This document shows positions 4,460 through 19,267 of a stretch of 26,282 nt of DNA, one piece after another. The stretch covers positions 1-26,282 of the IMG/VR virus record IMGVR_UViG_3300044636_000552; one strand, 5' to 3'. The stretch comes from a virus. Position 1 is the first letter of the stretch. Each line of letters opens with the position of its first letter. The notes beneath the pieces were generated by a model, which worked only from the letters and a program-made list of their open reading frames with translations, did not search any database and was not told the DNA's origin. Both the position numbers and the translations under genes were made by a program.

Positions 4460-4762
4460 ATGTCAGACTACTTCAGCGAATCGCTCGACACGCTGCCGCT
4501 GTTTCGCCGCACAGACCCGGTGACGAGCAAGGCCGCAGCGGCTGACGCGAAGACGTTCAGAGGCGAGCACCACGCGGCGATCCTCGAGGCCCTGAGCCAA
4601 GGCCCGGCCGGGGCCAGCGGCATTGCGGCACGGTGTGGGCTTGGGCCTCACCAGATCGGCAAGAGGCTGCACGAGCTCGCCAAGTGCGGGCGGATCGCAG
4701 AGACGGGCAACATTGTCACCAGCGCTAGCGGGCGCGGCGAACGGGAATGGAGGGTGTCGTGA
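4460..4762 (+). CDS. winged-helix DNA-binding protein
   Basis: 100 aa with GGAGG six bases before ATG 4460. After an N-terminal tail containing DPVTSKAAAADAKTFRGEHH, residues about 38-95 follow a winged-helix plan: ILEALSQGPAGASGIAARCG, GPHQIGKRLHELAKCGRI, then a wing and REWRV. The D-x-V/x-T-S-x-x-A-A lead followed by a wHTH is common in small phage regulators near replication genes. It probably binds DNA; its target is unknown. Confidence 0.65.
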   Translation: MSDYFSESLDTLPLFRRTDPVTSKAAAADAKTFRGEHHAAILEALSQGPAGASGIAARCGLGPHQIGKRLHELAKCGRIAETGNIVTSASGRGEREWRVS

Positions 4763-5178
4763 ATATTTACCCATACCGCTGTGTATCTCAAAACGCTGAG
4801 CTGCTTTACCTGTTAAGCGACGGCCTGCACGTCAAGGTTGGCAGGACTCGCAGAAGAATAGGAACACGAGTTTCCGCCCTGCAAACCGGATGTCCTCGTC
4901 GCATCAAAGCAATTGTGTCAGTCGAAATCCCACTGTGTGCGGCAGAGGCGGAGAACTACTGCCATCGGATGCTTGGCCCTTTTAAGACCGTTGGCGAATG
5001 GTTTAAGTGCAGCCTTGATGATGCGTTTAGCGCAATGCTTGTTGCTGCATCTGCATATGTTGGCAGCTGTTGGTTTGTTCACGACCTTAGTAACAAGTGC
5101 AGGTTTGAGAGAGCAATGGAGCAGCACAGGCGAAATTGGCACGGGATTAAGGAGGCCACGAATGGCACGCAAGCCTGA
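4759..5178 (+). CDS. T5orf172 / GIY-YIG-like nuclease-domain protein
   Basis: 139 aa from GTG 4759, which overlaps the previous stop as GTGA and has GGAGGG five bases upstream; an in-frame ATG at 4747 lacks such a site. The domain reads LLYLLSDGLHVKVGRT, RVSALQTGCP, AEAENYCHRMLGPF and VGEWFKC, matching the T5orf172/MUG113 branch of the GIY-YIG superfamily (Y..G..VKIG, RL..LQTGCP, E...H..F, GEWF). Such proteins are often mobile or homing-type nucleases. Third positions are clearly more A/T-rich than neighbouring genes (runs such as GTTGTTGCATCTGCATATG), suggesting later acquisition. Confidence 0.72.
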   Translation: MNIYPYRCVSQNAELLYLLSDGLHVKVGRTRRRIGTRVSALQTGCPRRIKAIVSVEIPLCAAEAENYCHRMLGPFKTVGEWFKCSLDDAFSAMLVAASAYVGSCWFVHDLSNKCRFERAMEQHRRNWHGIKEATNGTQA

Positions 5179-5986
5179 CAGCCACCACGTCCTTCCGCTG
5201 TTCTGCGATGACTTGATCGCGTCCTGCGTCGATATGACGCCGGCTTGCTTCGGGGCATACATGCGTCTCCTGTGCTATGCGTGGACGCGAGGTGGCATAC
5301 CAGATGACGAGGGGGCATGCGGCCGGATTGCCGGCGGGCTGGAGCCTGGCGACTGGGCAGCCATCAGGTCACGCCTGGTGCAGATCCCAGACGGATCGCA
5401 CTGCGATCGCAGTGCGATCGCAAACGGATCGCAAACGGATGTCCGGCTGACCCACCCGAGGCTTGAGCTTGAGCGGCAGGCCGTCGAGGCCCACAAGCAA
5501 AAGAAGTCAGAGGCCGGGAAAAAGGGCAATGATGCCAGGTGGGGATCGCAAACGGATCGCAAAACGATCGCAGAAGGTATCGCAAACGGATCGCAAACGG
5601 ATCGCAAAACGATCGCCCCTAATCCTTCCCCTAGCCTTCCCGTAAGACAAGACAAAACACACACACAGGCCGAAAGCGAGTTTCGCCAGCCAGGCTGGGC
5701 AGCGGTCGAGTGGGAGCGCTTTGCCGAACGATGGAACCGCACCGAGAAGGCTGCGAAGTGGACCCCGCTTATTGCGCCGGCCGGCTGGGTTGAGAGAGCC
5801 TGTGACGGCAGCTGGATGGCGAAGGCAGACGAGGCCCTTCAGCGTCTCCCTGGCTGCCATTGGTTTGACAGCCCGTTGGCGGTCACCAGGTTCTTCGACT
5901 ACGTCGACCGCATCTTGGCCGGCGAGTTTGACAACCCAAAGCAGGATGTAAGGCGAAAGAAACAGCCAGTAGGAGGGAACCTATGA
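5162..5986 (+). CDS. DUF1376 (YdaU-like) replication-initiator-type protein
   Basis: 274 aa from ATG 5162, with TAAGGAGG (5148-5155) six bases upstream. Residues 9-75 (HHVLPLFCDDLIASCVDMTP, then GAYMRLLCYAWTRGGIPDDE) and the LTHPRLELERQ and KKSEAGKKGNDARW segments match DUF1376, found in phage genes next to helicase loaders. Residues about 78-152 form a low-complexity linker with repeated GSQTDRKTIA units, encoded by 11-bp iterons. The C-terminal part (PGWAAVEWERFAERWNRT..., WVERACDGSWMAKADEAL) is a separate domain. The position before a loader-like gene and the internal iterons suggest it recognises the phage origin, like lambda O or P22 gp18. Confidence 0.7.
   Translation: MARKPDSHHVLPLFCDDLIASCVDMTPACFGAYMRLLCYAWTRGGIPDDEGACGRIAGGLEPGDWAAIRSRLVQIPDGSHCDRSAIANGSQTDVRLTHPRLELERQAVEAHKQKKSEAGKKGNDARWGSQTDRKTIAEGIANGSQTDRKTIAPNPSPSLPVRQDKTHTQAESEFRQPGWAAVEWERFAERWNRTEKAAKWTPLIAPAGWVERACDGSWMAKADEALQRLPGCHWFDSPLAVTRFFDYVDRILAGEFDNPKQDVRRKKQPVGGNL
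5393..5447 (+). repeat. iteron array A, 11-bp units
   Basis: The core GATCGCA begins at 5394, 5405, 5416 and 5427, each exactly 11 bp apart, and a degraded fifth unit (GATGTCC) follows at 5438. The full-unit consensus is (G/C)GATCGCAAAC. An 11-bp step is not a multiple of three, so the repeat is kept at DNA level, close to one helical turn. It lies inside the DUF1376 gene and probably forms part of a replication origin. Confidence 0.75.
5543..5620 (+). repeat. iteron array B, 11-bp units
   Basis: Cores at 5544, 5555, 5566, 5589 and 5600, a variant TATCGCA at 5578 (one 12-bp step, then back to 11) and a final GATCGCC at 5611. It uses the same unit as array A, about 96 bp downstream. A purine/AC-rich stretch (GTAAGACAAGACAAAACACA, about 5641-5660) follows and is the least GC-rich DNA nearby, a possible unwinding region. 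Confidence 0.75.
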
Positions 5987-6919: not shown

Positions 6920-7059
6920 CCGTGCGCGACTTCGTGATGCTCTCACTTGGCGAACTGATCCTGATGCTGACGTTCGGCCTCGGGATTTTGATAGGGATTT
7001 CACTTACTCGAAAGGAATCGAGACATGGCAACCGCGACGAAGAAACGAACCGGAATTGA
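6916..7059 (+). CDS. small single-span membrane protein, 47 aa
   Basis: ATG 6916 overlaps the previous stop (ATGA), and the stop at 7057-7059 lies 35 bp into dnaN. Residues about 6-30 (VMLSLGELILMLTFGLGILI, then GISL) form one transmembrane helix, followed by a basic, polar tail (TRKESRHGNRDEETNRN). Coupling and a clean membrane span support it; function unknown. Overlap with dnaN means its translation could affect the clamp's ribosome site. Confidence 0.5.
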   Translation: MTVRDFVMLSLGELILMLTFGLGILIGISLTRKESRHGNRDEETNRN

Positions 7060-8128
7060 ACTGGCGTCCGCTGACCTGAAGGCGGCGCTGGCCGCAGTCT
7101 CGCCGGCTGTGCCGACGCGCAGCCCGAAGCCGATCTACCAGGCCGTGCGCCTTGGCGACGGCCTGCTCACCGGCTCGGATGGCGAAGTGCGGATCGACGT
7201 GGCGCTCGACTACCACGGGGATGCGATCCTGCTGCCGCATGGCAGGCTCTCGCAGATCCTCGGGGCCGCCACGGGCGAGACGGTCACGCTGGAGCCGGGC
7301 GATACGTCCTGCGTTGTGCGGGCGGGCTCGGGCACGTGGACGCTTCCCACGGAGTCGGCGGCGGAATACCCCATGTGGGAGCCGACCGACGCGAAGCCCG
7401 TGACACGGCTGCCGGCCGATCAGTTCTGCCGTGCTGTGCGTGGCGTAAACTTCGCCACCGACGATGACTCCAGCCGGTTCGCCTTGGGCGCGGTGCTCAT
7501 CGAGGTCAAGGGCGAGACGGTCAGCTTCGTGGCAACGGACGGCCGGCGTCTCTCGCTCGTGGAGTGCGAGCACGACCTGGCCGTGGACGATTCGCAGACG
7601 CTCGTGCCGAGCAGGGTAATGGCGATCCTGTCGCGCCTCGCCCTGGCCGACTCCGATGGTTCGATCCAGCTGGAGGCGACGGGCAAAGAGATCGTGGCCA
7701 CCGTGGGCACGGCGACCGTGACGGCCCGGCTGATCGAAGGGCGATTTCCCAAGTGGCGCGACGTGGTGCCGGATCTCGACTGCGAGCCCACCACCGTGCT
7801 CGCCGAGCAGCTGCTGGCGGCGGTAAAGGCGGCGGCGATCGTCACCACCGAGGCCAGCCGGGGCATCGACTTCGCCTTCTCCGACAAGGGGCTGTGGCTC
7901 CACGGGAAGAGCAGCGAGGCCGGCGAGTCCAGCGTGACGTGCGACCTCGTGGAGGCTGGCACGGCATGCGTGGTGAAGCTGGACCCGCGCTACGTGCGGC
8001 AGTGGCTTGAAGGGCTGCCGGCGGATGGCGAGCCAACGGTGAGCGTCCAGGCCAAAGACGGGCAGAGTGCTGTGATCCTGCGTACGGATTGCAGCACGGG
8101 CGTTGTCATGCCTATGGCAGCGGAGTAA
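7025..8128 (+). CDS. dnaN: DNA polymerase III beta sliding clamp (DnaN)
   Basis: 367 aa, full length for bacterial beta clamps. It should form the dimeric ring that holds a polymerase on DNA. Visible features are the central FVATDGRRLSLVE motif (168-180), ARLIEGRFPKWRDVVP in the middle domain (234-249), and a C-terminal VVMPM (360-364), equivalent to the end of the hydrophobic partner-binding pocket. No phage DNA polymerase is seen in the window, so the clamp likely recruits host polymerase. Its AAGGAA ribosome site lies in the loop of a short hairpin (CTCGA 7007-7011, TCGAG 7018-7022). Confidence 0.93.
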   Translation: MATATKKRTGIELASADLKAALAAVSPAVPTRSPKPIYQAVRLGDGLLTGSDGEVRIDVALDYHGDAILLPHGRLSQILGAATGETVTLEPGDTSCVVRAGSGTWTLPTESAAEYPMWEPTDAKPVTRLPADQFCRAVRGVNFATDDDSSRFALGAVLIEVKGETVSFVATDGRRLSLVECEHDLAVDDSQTLVPSRVMAILSRLALADSDGSIQLEATGKEIVATVGTATVTARLIEGRFPKWRDVVPDLDCEPTTVLAEQLLAAVKAAAIVTTEASRGIDFAFSDKGLWLHGKSSEAGESSVTCDLVEAGTACVVKLDPRYVRQWLEGLPADGEPTVSVQAKDGQSAVILRTDCSTGVVMPMAAE

Positions 8129-11379: not shown

Positions 11380-11648
11380 TGCAGCACCAGGACCACATCG
11401 AGCGGCGGATCGTCGTGGAGTACGGCCGGCGATACGTCTACCTCACCATGCAGGACGCAGACGGCAAGCTGGTGCCGGGCTTTGAGGAAGTCTTTACGCA
11501 GCCCTTCCTGCTCGACCGGAAAGACTGCCACGAAGAAGCGGGCGACTGCTGGCAGGACGTGTACCAGTTCGTGTCAGACACGTGCGTGTGGCCTCTGCCA
11601 GAGGCCGAGGACGGCCCGGCACAATCGGGTGAGGAGGACGCCACATGA
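11379..11648 (+). CDS. hypothetical protein, 89 aa
   Basis: ATG 11379 overlaps the preceding TGA; a GTG at 11376 is also possible. The product MQHQDHIERRIVVEYGRRYV...VPGFEEVFTQPFLLD is mixed beta/alpha with an acidic C-terminus and a Trp-Cys element (CWQDVYQF, DTCVWPLP). No family recognised. It is translationally coupled on both sides. Confidence 0.6.
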   Translation: MQHQDHIERRIVVEYGRRYVYLTMQDADGKLVPGFEEVFTQPFLLDRKDCHEEAGDCWQDVYQFVSDTCVWPLPEAEDGPAQSGEEDAT

Positions 11649-11953
11649 GCACGCCGAACTACCAGGGCACCGCAGACGAGTACGCAAAGTTTGGGCCGAT
11701 GTTGAACGTGTGGCAACAGCTGGCCTTGCTGCAGGCCTGGGCTCCGCTGATCGGCTACGGCCAACGTTTCGTCAACGAGATCGACCCTTACAGGAAGTCG
11801 CTCGTGGTGAGTGACGCCGCCGAATGGCTCGCAAGCAAGACAAGCGCTCAGGTAGACGATCAGCTCGTGCGACTGCTCGCCGACATTCTGAAAACGAAGG
11901 AAGGCGAAAACCTCGTCCGGTTCCTGTTGCTGCAAGCCGAGGCCGCGAAGTGA
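11645..11953 (+). CDS. hypothetical helical protein, 102 aa
   Basis: Starts in an ATGA overlap. The protein is largely alpha-helical (MLNVWQQLALLQAWAPL, DDQLVRLLADILKTKEGENL) with no membrane-length hydrophobic run. No motif known to me. It is coupled by GTGA to the membrane protein downstream, so it may belong to the same functional group. Confidence 0.6.
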   Translation: MSTPNYQGTADEYAKFGPMLNVWQQLALLQAWAPLIGYGQRFVNEIDPYRKSLVVSDAAEWLASKTSAQVDDQLVRLLADILKTKEGENLVRFLLLQAEAAK

Positions 11954-12558
11954 ATGACTCGCTCCTACGCGCCTGCTGTGTCGTTGCCGCTGCTGCTCTC
12001 GCAGCTTCGCCGTACTGGTCGGAGATCCGAGCTGCGGCCGAGCGCGCCGCCAAGGCCGTGCGAGCCAGCGGCGGCGGGCTGATGCGTTGGGGCGCTGTTG
12101 CCTTGCTGCTCGCTGTAGCGTCTGGCGTGCAGCTGCCGAGGCTGCCGCAGTTGCCGAGCGTGCCTGTGCCGACGATCACCGTGGAGACGCCGAGCGTGGA
12201 GATGCAGACGAGAGTGGCGGGCGTTGCTCGAGCACTGGCCGGGGCGAATCCTGCCGAGCGTGCCATCTGGGCATCAGTGTGGGAGAAGGCCGCCGTGGTG
12301 GTTGCGGCCCCGGAGGGGAAGGAGCCCGTCTTCACTGACAGCCGATCGCTGCGTGGCTTCACCGTCTTGTCGCTCGACATCGCCTGGCGGCGTATGGCTG
12401 GCGTTCAGCCTGGCACCATGCCGGGGCTGCGTGAAGCCGTTGAGGCCGTCATGAGCGAGGCCGTGGGGCTCGACGTGAAGCCTGTGGATGCCGAGATGAA
12501 GCGACGGTATGCCGAGGCGTGCCGTGCGATTGCGTGGGCTGGCATCGGGAGGGGCTGA
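11950..12558 (+). CDS. membrane-anchored hypothetical protein, 202 aa
   Basis: GTG 11950 overlaps the previous stop as GTGA and has GAGG upstream; longer starts would overlap that gene heavily. Two hydrophobic segments, LLRACCVVAAAALAASPYW near the N-terminus and MRWGAVALLLAVASGVQL about 30 residues on, suggest membrane insertion. A Pro/Val-rich linker then leads to a C-terminal helical domain of about 130 residues. It comes just before the papain-like peptidase and may be part of a lysis or envelope module. Family unknown. Confidence 0.55.
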   Translation: MNDSLLRACCVVAAAALAASPYWSEIRAAAERAAKAVRASGGGLMRWGAVALLLAVASGVQLPRLPQLPSVPVPTITVETPSVEMQTRVAGVARALAGANPAERAIWASVWEKAAVVVAAPEGKEPVFTDSRSLRGFTVLSLDIAWRRMAGVQPGTMPGLREAVEAVMSEAVGLDVKPVDAEMKRRYAEACRAIAWAGIGRG

Positions 12559-12560
12559 CC

Positions 12561-13472
12561 ATGGCCGACTTCCTGCCACTCATGGGGTACGCGCCCGATC
12601 GCAAGGGCACGGATGACTTCCTGGCCACGCTCGCCCGCCCAACGCTCGCCCAGGCCGGGCCGGATCTCGTGCTGGACGAAAGCCGCGACGTGTTCCTCGG
12701 GCAGTATCTGCTCGCCTGCGATCCTGGCTGGAAGCGTGGAGCCCAGAAGATCGGCAGCTGTGTCGGCTGGGGCTGGGCCTTGTCGTGCGACATCCTCGCC
12801 GCGTGCGACATCCTGTTACGCCGTGAGTCGGAGAGTTACGGCGGCCGGGTGCTCGAGGCGAGCGTGTACGGGTTTGCGCGCGTCGAAACTTCCGGCAAGC
12901 GCAACCTTGGTGGCGACGGTTCCTACGGCGGCGCGGCGGCCAAGGCCGTCACAAGGTTCGGCACGCTGCACTACGGGCAGAACTATGACGGCGTGACGTT
13001 CACCGACAACAGCGGCAGCCGCGAGAAGGAATGGGGCCGCGACGGCGTGCCCGATCGGTTCGAGCCGTTTGCTGCGAAGCGCACCGTGTCGAGCGTGGCC
13101 CTGGTGAAGACGTTTGAGGATGCCGCCAAGAGCATCCAGAACGGCTACCCCGTGGCTGTGTGCTCCATGCGTGGGTTCTCCATGACGCTGCGAGATGGCT
13201 ACCTGACGCCGATGGGCCAGTGGGCTCACTGCATGATGTTCGCAGGCGTCCGGTGGAAGCCTCGCCCTGCCCTGCTTTGTGTGAACAGCTGGGGCGACTG
13301 CTACTCGGGCAGCGTCGATCCGAACCTGCCGCCGCAGTTCCAGAAGTCGGCCGGATGGGTGGATGCCGCCACCTGCACGTCGATGCTCTCGGGGGAAGAC
13401 TCGTTCGCCCTGAGCGGATACGAAGGATTCCCGCCACGCATGCTGCCCGATTGGACGGGAGGCGTGCTGTGA
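12561..13472 (+). CDS. papain-fold (C1-like) cysteine peptidase
   Basis: 303 aa from ATG 12561, preceded by GGGAGGGG. The catalytic layout of papain-type peptidases is visible: Gln62 then GSC with Cys67 (QKIGSCVGWGWALSCDIL), His223 (GQWAHCMMFAGV) and Asn242 in VNSWGDCYSGS. No signal peptide or separate wall-binding domain is seen, and no prodomain is obvious. Possible roles are lysis of a protein-rich envelope, maturation of a virion protein, or attack on host proteins. Membrane proteins lie on both sides, which favours an envelope role, but the substrate is unknown. Confidence 0.75.
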   Translation: MADFLPLMGYAPDRKGTDDFLATLARPTLAQAGPDLVLDESRDVFLGQYLLACDPGWKRGAQKIGSCVGWGWALSCDILAACDILLRRESESYGGRVLEASVYGFARVETSGKRNLGGDGSYGGAAAKAVTRFGTLHYGQNYDGVTFTDNSGSREKEWGRDGVPDRFEPFAAKRTVSSVALVKTFEDAAKSIQNGYPVAVCSMRGFSMTLRDGYLTPMGQWAHCMMFAGVRWKPRPALLCVNSWGDCYSGSVDPNLPPQFQKSAGWVDAATCTSMLSGEDSFALSGYEGFPPRMLPDWTGGVL

Positions 13473-13753
13473 GGCTTTCCCGCATTCTGCTTCTGGCCCT
13501 GGCCGGCGGCTGCGTCAACGCAACGGCCGTTGATCGCCCCGACATCGTTGCCGACCTCGCCTGCGAGACAGCCCGCATGGCCGTGCAGCTCGGGCAGCAG
13601 ATGACGCCTGCCCCGGCCTCGGACAAGTGCGACAACTGCGACGGCACCGGCAAGATCGGCGACGGCCGGATTGTGATGACCTGCCCCGTGTGCAAGGGCA
13701 CCGGCAAAAAGGCGAAGTCTGTGCTGTGTACCTCGGGGAGCTGCAAGCCATGA
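13469..13753 (+). CDS. lipoprotein candidate with two CxxCxGxG zinc motifs
   Basis: 94 aa from GTG 13469 (GTGA overlap with the peptidase gene). An N-terminal hydrophobic segment (LSRILLLALAGGC) ends at Cys15 in a lipobox-like LAGGC, suggesting lipid attachment after export. Two DnaJ-type motifs, CDNCDGTG (54-61) and CPVCKGTG (72-79), could bind one zinc ion. Such a motif on a small lipoprotein is unusual. Being next to the peptidase, it may be an envelope partner, for example spanin-like; that is speculation. Confidence 0.55.
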   Translation: MRLSRILLLALAGGCVNATAVDRPDIVADLACETARMAVQLGQQMTPAPASDKCDNCDGTGKIGDGRIVMTCPVCKGTGKKAKSVLCTSGSCKP

Positions 13754-14091
13754 GCCTCGAGGATCTCGACGCCTACGTGTGGTCGCAGCTGTCACCACGA
13801 CGGTATGCCGCAGGCAGGCCGCTCGTGGCCCGGCTCACCAAGCGAGTGGTCCGCAAGTTCCCGCACCTAGTCATGTCGCAGACCAGGCCCGAGTCTTACG
13901 GCATGGTCATGCACGAGATCGCCAAGAGCATCGAACGAAGCGAACGGCAGAACTACGGCATGGGCATCATCCTGACGCTCGTTCTGGGCGCGATCATCCA
14001 AGAGATCGTGAAGGCCGTCCTGCGGTGGTGGCTGCAATCTGCCAGCAATCGGGCACTCTTGCTAGGTTGGCAAACGGAGATGCGACGATGA
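13750..14091 (+). CDS. membrane protein, 113 aa
   Basis: ATGA overlap with the lipoprotein gene. A basic, soluble first half (VARLTKRVVRKFPHLVMSQT, ESYGMVMHEIAKSIERSERQ) is followed by one transmembrane helix, GMGIILTLVLGAIIQEIVKA, and a WW-containing tail. It could belong to a holin/spanin-type module, but the single span and long basic front are not diagnostic. Confidence 0.6.
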   Translation: MSLEDLDAYVWSQLSPRRYAAGRPLVARLTKRVVRKFPHLVMSQTRPESYGMVMHEIAKSIERSERQNYGMGIILTLVLGAIIQEIVKAVLRWWLQSASNRALLLGWQTEMRR

Positions 14092-14351
14092 CCGACGAAG
14101 TAAAAGGCACCCTGTTCGGCATTATGGAGCGGTGGGGCTTTCCCACGCTGGTTGCCATCGTCGCCATGTGGGTGCTTCGCCAGGACGTGTTGCTGCCGCT
14201 GGTAGAGTCTCACAAGCAGTTCGTTCAGCAGCTCGGCGAGACGCAGGGCGACATCTCGAAGGCGATCCAAGAGCAGACCCGCCTGCTCTACGCCATGCAG
14301 CCAGGACGATCAGCGGCGGCCCGCATGCCCGATACCGACGCGGCGAACTGA
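14088..14351 (+). CDS. small membrane protein, 87 aa (holin-like?)
   Basis: ATGA overlap with the preceding gene. One transmembrane helix near the N-terminus (WGFPTLVAIVAMWVLRQDVL) is followed by an amphipathic, polar helix (LVESHKQFVQQLGETQGDIS). Size and topology fit phage membrane proteins annotated near holins, but a single span alone does not prove pore formation. It ends the coupled series from 11379 to 14351. Confidence 0.55.
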   Translation: MTDEVKGTLFGIMERWGFPTLVAIVAMWVLRQDVLLPLVESHKQFVQQLGETQGDISKAIQEQTRLLYAMQPGRSAAARMPDTDAAN

Positions 14352-14380: not shown

Positions 14381-15091
14381 ATGTGCGCAATGAGCCCGAG
14401 ACTGCTGCGACCAAGGGCGACTGGGTTCAACCCCAAGAGCATCGCAGGGCTGGCGGTCTGGCTTGATGCCGGCGCTCCTGCCTCACTGACGTTTAATGGC
14501 AGCACTATTTCGCAGATTAACGACCAGAGCGGAAACGCCCGAAACGGTACGCAGGCGACAGCCGCGAGGCAGCCCAGTTATTCAGCGACCGACGCCAACG
14601 GCAGACCGGCAATCACGTTTCCATCTGGCGGCCTTAGCGTGGTGACGCCTGAATGGGCATTCACGAACACGGTGACTGTGTTCGCCGTTGCAAAAAACAC
14701 CAACAACAGCTTCGGTGGAATGTTTCAGCGAGGCGCAGTCAACGAGCGGCACGCTGGGTTTCGCAACTCAGGCACGCTTGTGGCACGGAGAGGAGGAAGT
14801 TCCGACGCCAGCGTGACGTTTACGAGCAGCGACTACAACGTGATGCAATGGTCATTTGCTGCGACTCTCGGCCGTACGACCGTCAACGGCACAGCCGGCA
14901 CCGACCAAACGTCATCAGTATCGTTTGCCGCTGACATTAAAAGCCTTCGCGTGGGAAGTCTGGGCGACGGCACGCTTGGAATGATTGGCGGCATTGCGGA
15001 GTTCCTGTATTACGACGCCTTAATTTCAACAACCGAAGCGGCGGCCGTGCGGCGTTACCTTGGGCGCAAATACAACATCGGCACCACATGA
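14381..15091 (+). CDS. LamG/ConA-like lectin-fold protein
   Basis: 236 aa from ATG 14381 (14390 also possible); no strong ribosome site. The sequence follows the bacterial LamG/ConA-like beta-sandwich plan: IAGLAVWLDAGAPASL, QINDQSGNARNGTQ, RPAITFPSGGLSVV, VTVFAVAKNTNNS, then IAEFLYYDALISTTEAAAVR and YLGRKYNI. Such domains bind sugars or surfaces. In phages they often occur in structural or receptor-binding proteins, so this may be a decoration or adhesion protein. Third positions are slightly more A/T-rich than in neighbours, hinting at mobility. Confidence 0.7.
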   Translation: MCAMSPRLLRPRATGFNPKSIAGLAVWLDAGAPASLTFNGSTISQINDQSGNARNGTQATAARQPSYSATDANGRPAITFPSGGLSVVTPEWAFTNTVTVFAVAKNTNNSFGGMFQRGAVNERHAGFRNSGTLVARRGGSSDASVTFTSSDYNVMQWSFAATLGRTTVNGTAGTDQTSSVSFAADIKSLRVGSLGDGTLGMIGGIAEFLYYDALISTTEAAAVRRYLGRKYNIGTT

Positions 15092-17206: not shown

Positions 17207-17677
17207 ATGACCAGTGGCCGAAAACCAAAGACCGCAGCACAAAAGCTGATGGACGGCAACCCCGGCAAGCGGAAGATCCGCCCCGACCTGCCCGCTCCGC
17301 CCGGCGCGCCGCCGATGCCGAAGCGTTTGATGGTCGAGCCGCTGGCGGTTGAGAAGTGGACCGAGTTCGTGCCGATCCTGATGCAGCTGGGCACGCTGAC
17401 CACGGCCGATGGCGAGGCTCTTGCCACTTTGTGCGAGGTGTACGCTGCCACGCAGGCGTGCCTCTTGGAGTTGCGGGCGACCGGCCCGGTGATGAGGACC
17501 GACCTGGGCGGTGTGAAACCCAACCCGGCAGGCCCGCTATATCGTGGATTAGTGAGCCTTCAGGCTTCGCTAATGGGCGAGTTTGGATTGACGCCGACAT
17601 CAAGGGCACGCCTAGGTGGCAAAGAAGAAAAGCCCAGCGACGAAGTCGAAGACTTCTTCCGCGTCCACGGCGCGTGA
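17207..17677 (+). CDS. terS: terminase small subunit, P27 family
   Basis: 156 aa. GNPGKRKI (17-24) after a short basic start, a Pro-rich segment, a W..F.P.L..LG.LT..D helical region (51-70) and FGLTPTSRARLGG (126-138) are typical of the P27-like small terminase family. It recognises the packaging start on phage DNA and brings it to the large subunit, which overlaps it by 62 bp. Confidence 0.88.
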   Translation: MTSGRKPKTAAQKLMDGNPGKRKIRPDLPAPPGAPPMPKRLMVEPLAVEKWTEFVPILMQLGTLTTADGEALATLCEVYAATQACLLELRATGPVMRTDLGGVKPNPAGPLYRGLVSLQASLMGEFGLTPTSRARLGGKEEKPSDEVEDFFRVHGA

Positions 17678-18368
17678 GCTGACGCCCGAGGGCCAGGCGA
17701 AGTACGAGCGCGTCGTGGCCTTCTTCGAGAAGGTGCTGCGGCACAGCAAAGGCCAGAACGCCGGCAAGCCGTTCACGCTGTTGCCGTGGCAGCATCATGT
17801 GCTGCGTGAGCTCTTCGGCCGGCTGAACCCTGACGGCACGCGGCAGCATCGTGTTGGGTACATTGAGCTGCCGAAGAAGCAAGGCAAGAGCACCACACTT
17901 GCCGGCATCGCCCTCTATCTGACGGCCTTCGACTCTGAGCCTGGTGCTGAGTGCTATTCGGCGGCTGCGGATCGTGAGCAGGCAGGCATCATCTACCGCG
18001 AGGCCGCGTCAATGGTGCGGGCTTCGCCTGCGTTGTCTCGCCACCTCGAGGTGATCGACAGCCGCAAGACCATCGTGCATAAGGCGAGCAATTCGTTTTA
18101 CCGGGTTCTCTCGGCTGATGCGTTCCGGGCCGAGGGCCTCAACATCCACGCCCTGCTCTTTGATGAACTCCATGCACAAAGGGACCGCCGCCTCTGGGCT
18201 TTCGCCCCTGGCCGAGAGGCTGGGGGCGAAGGCCCGGCACAACAAGAGATGCACTCAGGTACGGCGGGGCGGCTCGGAGATCACCAATGCTGTTATCGAT
18301 CACCACGGCGGGCTTCGACCGCAAGAGCATCTGTTGGGAGCAGCACCAGTACGCAGAGCGTTGCATAG
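17616..18368 (+). pseudogene. terL: terminase large subunit, N-terminal ATPase part (frame broken)
   Basis: GTG 17616. Residues 1-194 match the P27-type large terminase ATPase: FTLLPWQHHVLRELFG, Walker A PKKQGKST (86-93), and Walker B ALLFDE (179-184) followed by LHAQRDRRLW. After Trp194 (codon 18195-18197) the frame meets a 50-nt insertion and reads 56 unrelated residues to a stop at 18368. The expected next text, DALRYGGAARRSP.LLSITTAG, resumes at 18248 two bases out of frame. It is thus a truncated ATPase, or the first half of a gene that needs recoding or RNA processing to work. Confidence 0.8.
18198..18247 (+). other. 50-nt hairpin insertion in terL
   Basis: The frame before 18198 and the frame from 18248 join into a normal terminase sequence (RRLW then DALRYGG), so these 50 nt are extra. 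GGGCTTTCGCCCCTGGCC (18196-18213) and GGCTGGGGGCGAAGGCCC (18218-18235) pair over 18 bp with three G-U pairs and a GAGA (GNRA) tetraloop. Two more pairs (18194-18195 with 18236-18237) extend it. A short tail, GGCACAACAAGA, follows. No target duplication is visible. See findings for interpretations. Confidence 0.85.
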
Positions 18369-19267
18369 CCGATCCGGCAGTGGACCCGGCTTTCTTCGGC
18401 TGCATCTATGCCGCCTCGCCGGAAGACGATTGGAAAGACCCAAAGACGTGGCACAAGGCGAACCCGTCGCTAGGCCAGACGATCACCGAGGAGTCTTTCG
18501 CTGCCGACGCCCGCGAGGCGGATCAGTCGCCCAGCAAGCTGAACGCCTTTTTGCGATACAGGCTCAATGTCTGGACCACTCAGGACACGCGGTGGATTGC
18601 CCCAGACGCATGGGCCAAGTGCGGCAACCCGATCGACTCTGACCTAGAGAAGCGGGAGTGGTTTGCCGGGCTCGACCTCGCCAGCACCACCGATCTGTCG
18701 GCGCTTGTGCTCGTGAGCCAGTCCAGCGACGGCACCTTCGACGTGCTGCCGTTCTTCTGGGTGCCAGAGGTACACGCGGCCGAGCGGACGCTGCGGGACA
18801 AAGTGGACTACGTCGGCTGGATTCGTGACGGCTTTATCCGTGCCACGGATGGAAACGTCACTGACTACGACGTAATCAGGCGAGACATCAACGAACTGGC
18901 CAAGCAATACAACATCCGGCAGATCGGAATCGACCGCTGGAACGCCACGCAACTGGCCACGCAACTGCAAGGCGATGGGCTAAATGTGGCAGGGTACGGG
19001 CAAGGGTTTGCCAGCATGACGAGCCCTTGCCGCCAGCTCGAGACGCTCGTGCTGTCGGAGCGGATACGGCACGGCAATCACCCGGTGTTGAGTTGGATGG
19101 CCGCCAACGTGGCGGTGCAGACCGACCACCAGGGCAACATGAAATGCAGCAAGGCTAAGAGCACCGAGCGGATCGACGGCATAGTGGCTCTCGTCATGGG
19201 CCTGGGCCTGCACGCCACAGCAACGGCACCGCCGCCAGAACAATCCTGGGACATCATGACGCTATGA
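18287..19267 (+). CDS. terL: terminase large subunit, C-terminal part
   Basis: Homology-like text in this frame begins at GAT 18248 (DALRYGGAARRSP), before the first ATG at 18287. That ATG has GGAG (18276-18279) seven bases upstream, so separate translation is possible. The part includes the coupling motif SITTAG, ICWEQHQYAE, and the RNase-H-like nuclease with acidic segments (FAGLDLASTTDLSALVL, IGIDRWNATQ, ERIDGIVALVMG). It supplies headful or cos cutting in packaging. With residues 1-194 of the upstream part it would make about 533 aa, a normal length for this family. Confidence 0.85.
   Translation: MLLSITTAGFDRKSICWEQHQYAERCIADPAVDPAFFGCIYAASPEDDWKDPKTWHKANPSLGQTITEESFAADAREADQSPSKLNAFLRYRLNVWTTQDTRWIAPDAWAKCGNPIDSDLEKREWFAGLDLASTTDLSALVLVSQSSDGTFDVLPFFWVPEVHAAERTLRDKVDYVGWIRDGFIRATDGNVTDYDVIRRDINELAKQYNIRQIGIDRWNATQLATQLQGDGLNVAGYGQGFASMTSPCRQLETLVLSERIRHGNHPVLSWMAANVAVQTDHQGNMKCSKAKSTERIDGIVALVMGLGLHATATAPPPEQSWDIMTL

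Follow-up and report, generated by a model that had tools for sequence, protein, structure and literature searches.

The stretch of DNA analysed here, hereafter the window, is a fragment of 26,282 bases from an IMG/VR virus record (IMGVR_UViG_3300044636_000552). Between positions 11,645 and 14,351 it carries a cassette of six plus-strand genes, wider than first noted, which we refer to below by their first positions. The central gene (12561..13472, ATG start) encodes a papain-fold cysteine peptidase of 303 amino acids. It is preceded by the genes at 11645 and 11950 and followed by those at 13469, 13750 and 14088.

The peptidase matched no Pfam and no PHROG family at E≤1. Searches of PDB sequences gave no credible match with the single sequence and none with a profile, and tblastn found no match among cultured phages in 50,697 records. 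An AlphaFold2 model was built from a 21-sequence alignment and compared with the PDB using Foldseek, which retrieved papain-family structures (best E value 1e-7). The top solved match is xylellain (3ois), a bacterial C1 peptidase that is not known to be part of any phage cassette, with a Z score of 17.6, a root-mean-square deviation of 3.4, 236 aligned residues and 11% identity. This match spans residues 1-288, and the 303 residues hold no second, C-terminal domain. Among viral protein models, the peptidase has matches to peptidase C1 proteins; weaker ones are to lysins, for instance Mycobacterium phage LysA and a Gordonia endolysin. It is named papain-fold here and is not placed in Pfam C1, because it matches no curated C1 sequence family. 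Judged by the model and by the residues described below, open reading frame (ORF) 12561-13472 is a papain-fold (C1-type) cysteine peptidase of predicted activity.

A reading made from the letters of the window alone (the sequence-only reading) had described a C1-like peptidase with Cys67, His223 and Asn242. All three are present in this ORF (codons at 12759..12761, 13227..13229 and 13284..13286, plus strand), and the model gives the papain fold. Conservation was counted at the aligned columns of 92 peptidase loci, over the letters present in each column. The predicted catalytic residues Cys67 and His223 are found in 90/90 and 92/92 sequences, respectively, and Gln62, five residues before Cys67, in 90/90. 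In papain, the Gln stands six residues before the catalytic Cys. Position 242, which opens the NSWG motif, is Asn in 69 of 91 sequences and Gln in the other 22, and the following Ser-Trp pair (243-244) is present in 91/91. A more divergent alignment of 26 rows shows the Cys, the His, the upstream Gln and the Asn or Gln with its Ser-Trp pair in every row. Finally, the ratio of nonsynonymous to synonymous substitution rates (dN/dS) of the peptidase against three relatives was 0.10-0.17, these being three pairs with dS near saturation in one.

The organization of the cassette was compared in 17 gene-called records, i.e. the window and 16 fetched relative records. These records were selected for holding the peptidase, so that its own presence in them is not evidence; the presence of the partner genes is. 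The order 11645, 11950 (or two separate halves of it), peptidase, zinc-ribbon gene, 13750, 14088 is kept in 17/17 records, with genes that mostly overlap by 4 bases, and the cassette sits between replication genes (RusA) and the terminase. This constant order, together with the low dN/dS of the peptidase, indicates that the module is more than a chance assembly. Linkage was also examined starting from the partners. Among 140 loci fetched through homologues of 11645 (the best 80 of 232) or 11950 (60), which are not independent since many are the same contigs, 139 hold the peptidase and the remaining one ends 129 bases past the partner gene. Loci were further fetched through the portal protein (the best 80 of at least 596). 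The peptidase was found in 11/11 of those with a full 10 kilobases (kb) upstream and in 14/19 of those with more than 4.5 kb. Of the five without it, L342 and L368 break off within the cassette or shortly beyond it, L312 is part of record G001, where the peptidase lies elsewhere, and the upstream sequence of L349 and L353 is limited to 4.8 and 7.3 kb. No swap, that is, partners accompanying another enzyme or related phages lacking the peptidase, was found among the loci examined. At L345:1217-2212, an otherwise close cassette holds a papain-like protein 30% identical to the window peptidase, which suggests from sequence comparison that the peptidase has been exchanged within the module.

The first gene of the cassette (11645..11953, plus strand) encodes a soluble-looking protein of 102 amino acids without a hydrophobic segment (cluster 2). 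It is present in 17/17 records, always upstream of the peptidase, and shares its last 4 bases with the next gene. That gene (11950..12558, plus strand, GTG start; cluster 3, 17/17) encodes a membrane-anchored protein with a C-terminal helical domain, whose N-terminal part is a separate gene in some relatives. Residues 81-200 were modelled as all-helical with pLDDT above 80; the best solved fold match (Z score 5.8) is uninformative, and no BFVD match was obtained at E≤0.001. Downstream of the peptidase, the gene at 13469..13753 (plus strand) encodes a zinc-ribbon protein with a lipoprotein-like N-terminus, two CxxC knuckles and a weak match of DnaJ/anti-TRAP type. It was identified by clustering in 14/17 records and by eye, in the corresponding gap, in the other three (G012, G013 and G020). 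In 84 of 90 loci, the 900 bases downstream of the peptidase contain a zinc-ribbon-like ORF, compared to 15 of 335 control stretches; none was found in L043 and L049-L053. The next gene (13750..14091, plus strand; cluster 7, 15/17) encodes a membrane protein with one hydrophobic segment in its C-terminal half, a candidate holin. G020 and G023 have another small protein (cluster 145) at this place. The last gene (14088..14351, plus strand; cluster 5, 17/17) encodes a membrane protein with an N-terminal hydrophobic segment followed by a polar helix, a candidate holin or inner-membrane spanin. Neither the 13750 nor the 14088 protein matched a Pfam or PHROG family.

The sequence-only reading had described the peptidase as surrounded by three membrane proteins and a lipoprotein candidate. 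The membrane character of the 13750 and 14088 proteins is clear (hydrophobicity score KD19 of 2.21 and 1.89, respectively), but that of the 11950 protein is borderline in the window (1.59), with values of at least 1.4 in 15/17 homologues. Similarly, the 13469 protein does have a Cys (Cys15) after a hydrophobic start, and 16/17 homologues have a Cys within residues 13-20, but the strict lipobox pattern is found in only 7/17, the window protein not among them.

Pfam families of the window proteins include HK97-type head genes, an integrase, a sliding clamp, RusA and RecT. Immediately 3′ of the cassette lies a LamG/virion-structural-like gene (14390..15091, plus strand; phrog_10356, E 2e-20), and further downstream are the terminase small subunit and two terminase large-subunit ORFs (17207..19267, plus strand; Terminase_4, TerL_ATPase and TerL_nuclease). 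The two large-subunit ORFs (17616-18368 and 18287-19267) overlap in different frames, which may reflect a frameshift, a sequencing error or a true split; record G001 likewise holds a C-terminal large-subunit piece of 326 amino acids. The sliding clamp, the DNA polymerase III beta subunit, is encoded at 7025-8128 (cluster 24, in 12/17 gene-called records). A T5orf172/MUG113 match at 4747-5178 overlaps the next ORF (4913-5986). Trypsin, CAP, Amidoligase_2 and ART-PolyVal domains are scattered among representative proteins of the relatives in Pfam scans.

The absence of a classical lysozyme or amidase from the window, as remarked in the sequence-only reading, was confirmed: the 22 families recognized among the 40 other window proteins include no peptidoglycan hydrolase. 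The search for a standard endolysin was extended to 30 relative records, in which Amidase_2, NLPC_P60, Phage_lysozyme, SLT, M23, CHAP, M15_4 and Amidase_3 were each found in 0/30, while the positive controls for these eight families gave a signal. Likewise, two Pfam scans of the relatives' representative proteins (94 and 81) showed no lysin among the 25 families listed of 44 and the 25 listed of 39.

Relatives of the peptidase on bacterial chromosomes point to the host. In a scan of 84,980 species genomes, the five confirmed peptidase loci were all titled Planctomycetota, Planctomycetales or Aquisphaera, the latter being a planctomycete; the peptidase was present in 10 of 392 sampled Planctomycetota genomes. 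A relative is carried by Aquisphaera insulae JC669, a cultured planctomycete. The neighbourhoods of 11 chromosomal loci were read. A short membrane-anchored or exported protein is often encoded upstream, small hydrophobic proteins are found downstream or nearby, and several loci have a terminase. Around seven of them, Pfam families pooled over the loci include a lambda-type portal, GpA and Terminase_6N terminases, an SU10 capsid and an S49 peptidase. Since these head families are unlike the HK97-type set of the window, the module moves independently of head genes.

The chromosomal loci also inform on export and on a possible redox partner. The peptidase starts with a hydrophobic anchor in L407, L409, L416 and the viral locus L376; to judge from sequence, this anchor would place the catalytic domain outside the cytoplasm. 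In six of the 11 chromosomal loci (L407, L408, L409, L410, L414 and L415), the next exported gene has a thioredoxin domain above the Pfam cut-off. In L410 the thioredoxin is fused to a zinc ribbon, and in L415 a zinc-ribbon lipoprotein gene directly precedes the thioredoxin gene. L411 and L413 were not counted, as they have CxxC motifs only and no family match; neither thioredoxin nor CxxC motifs were seen in L412, L416 and L417. In viral loci L044-L048, an exported zinc ribbon continues into a thioredoxin-like end with sub-threshold support: the thioredoxin Pfam E values are 0.0075-0.047 for L044, L045 and L046, none was obtained for L047, and the L045 protein matches PDB entry 3d4t at E 0.0029. 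A 4Fe-4S domain (Fer4_19) opens this protein in L046:4900-5607 (E 6.9e-15) and L047:4542-5267 (E 1.7e-12), and the alignment shows the same start in L048:1883-2611. The family of the window has retained the zinc ribbon alone.

In phages of the lambda type, the holin-endolysin-spanin cassette lies before the terminase and consists of overlapping genes that include small membrane proteins and a lipoprotein-like partner. The window module resembles it in position, small membrane proteins, lipoprotein-like partner and gene overlaps. It differs in that no lysozyme, holin or spanin family was detected and in having a papain-fold peptidase with a zinc-ribbon or thioredoxin partner. The evidence best supports reading the cassette as a lysis or envelope module, given its fixed composition at a lambda-like position, the lack of common lysins in the relatives and the exported or membrane-anchored partners; to this extent the sequence-only reading holds. 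More specifically, 11645-14351 is probably a lysis (host-exit) module in which the peptidase replaces the endolysin. Since no ordinary cell-wall enzyme was found and a fixed cassette occupies the usual place of lysis genes, the way in which these phages open planctomycete cells may be unusual.

The proposed mechanism is as follows. The carrier would be a temperate tailed phage of Planctomycetota, and the module would act at the time of host exit. The membrane proteins 13750 and 14088, or one of them, would make the inner membrane permeable or bridge the envelope. The peptidase would then gain the periplasm and, if proteolytically active as predicted, cut the load-bearing envelope at one of two targets, envelope proteins or the stem peptides of peptidoglycan. 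The role of the zinc-ribbon lipoprotein, to which a thioredoxin is fused in some other lineages and whose place a thioredoxin takes in others, would be to keep the active-site cysteine reduced or to open envelope disulfides. The holin and spanin assignments are candidates suggested by layout, in which alone the lipoprotein-like 13469 protein and the membrane-coil 14088 protein resemble a spanin pair.

Several observations weigh against a host-exit module. The peptidase model is of medium confidence (pLDDT 70, pTM 0.78), and the window peptidase has no export signal. The window cassette proteins matched no holin, endolysin or spanin family in Pfam or PHROG, and the sole hint of a spanin is the match of a relative's coil protein to a spanin PHROG at E 0.076. 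The lysin search of the relative records covered nine families including GH108, which was found in 0/30 but with a silent control; this result was not used, and GH108 is not excludable. In the two scans of representative proteins, 19 of 44 and 14 of 39 families lie outside the matches listed. Moreover, the lack of a lysin is not proof of absence, since the relative records, which have no CheckV completeness, may be incomplete. At L414 and L415, where the peptidase and the zinc-ribbon/thioredoxin genes occupy the reversed strand near 7 kb, the module adjoins genes of host-like type, among them a peptidase U32 and an alpha/beta hydrolase, without any recognized phage gene; these modules may be remnants or serve a domesticated use. 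Finally, the passages available from PMC4432640 describe planctomycete peptidoglycan as lysozyme-sensitive, and a classical protease need not cut peptidoglycan.

Older work on Planctomyces envelopes, in the accessible parts of PMC3035269 and PMC2754498, describes them as SDS-resistant, protein-rich, rich in cysteine and stabilised by disulfides. In a bolder and less probable form of the mechanism, a periplasmic papain-type protease and an exported thioredoxin or zinc-ribbon lipoprotein would dismantle a disulfide-stabilised protein layer without any peptidoglycan hydrolase. As planctomycetes have lysozyme-sensitive peptidoglycan, according to the same passages of PMC4432640, peptidoglycan peptides may instead be what the peptidase cuts. 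A "protease-based" exit suited to a "protein-rich envelope", as the sequence-only reading suggested, is a conjecture.

Among explanations other than host exit by a peptidase that replaces the endolysin, lysogenic conversion or superinfection exclusion, with the module altering the envelope of the host early in infection or in the lysogenic state but not lysing the cell, is improbable. It would account for the chromosomal loci L414 and L415, which hold the module next to host-like genes, and for the methyltransferase-like gene upstream in the window. However, conversion genes are usually patchily distributed, whereas the module is present in all gene-called relatives, at a lambda-like lysis position and with no other lysin candidate. 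The same lack of another wall-cutting candidate makes it similarly improbable that the module lyses the cell with the peptidase serving only to process the actual wall-cutting agent, a protein of phage or host, even though papain-type enzymes normally cleave proteins and several module proteins, such as 11950, have no known fold. An entry or virion enzyme, carried with the tail or fibres and opening the envelope at infection, is also improbable. LamG/fibre-like genes do follow the cassette, and many viral protein models contain papain-like proteins, but the genes nearest to the peptidase encode small membrane proteins and a lipoprotein-like protein that is exported, not virion proteins, some peptidase orthologues have their own membrane anchor, and the cassette is found next to unrelated head types. 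Least likely of all is that the peptidase is a prohead protease or other capsid-maturation enzyme: it is encoded close to terminase and head genes, but a Peptidase_S78 prohead protease is already encoded in the window, Peptidase_S49 lies near chromosomal relatives, and the partners are exported or bound to membranes. A capsid role is further disfavoured by the unrelated head modules next to which relatives are found, equipped with proteases of their own.

Papain-family domains in lysins are already known (PMC3314691, PMC4982276, in the passages available). According to the former, such domains function in some mycobacteriophage lysins, where the cysteine protease domain N5 of LysA is one domain of a modular lysin and is usually followed by a second conserved domain. 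Compared to N5, the window peptidase is single-domain, matches no sequence family and belongs to a separate cassette with membrane proteins. In the lysis cassette of Gordonia phage BetterKatz, as presented in the accessible part of PMC4982276, a cysteine protease-like predicted endolysin adjoins membrane proteins, as here; BetterKatz also has a glycoside hydrolase, none of which was found here, and its host is an actinobacterium. No paper on the present module was found among open PubMed Central papers, and phage lysis of planctomycetes is almost undocumented in the searchable literature.

Whether protein walls or peptidoglycan bear the load in the planctomycete envelope is debated. If the proposed reading is correct, an exit module that combines a papain-fold peptidase with a redox partner would provide a genetic handle on the load-bearing part of this envelope. 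It would also represent an additional type of lysin, one that no family model covers at present, and may be the reason why such phages are annotated without a lysin.

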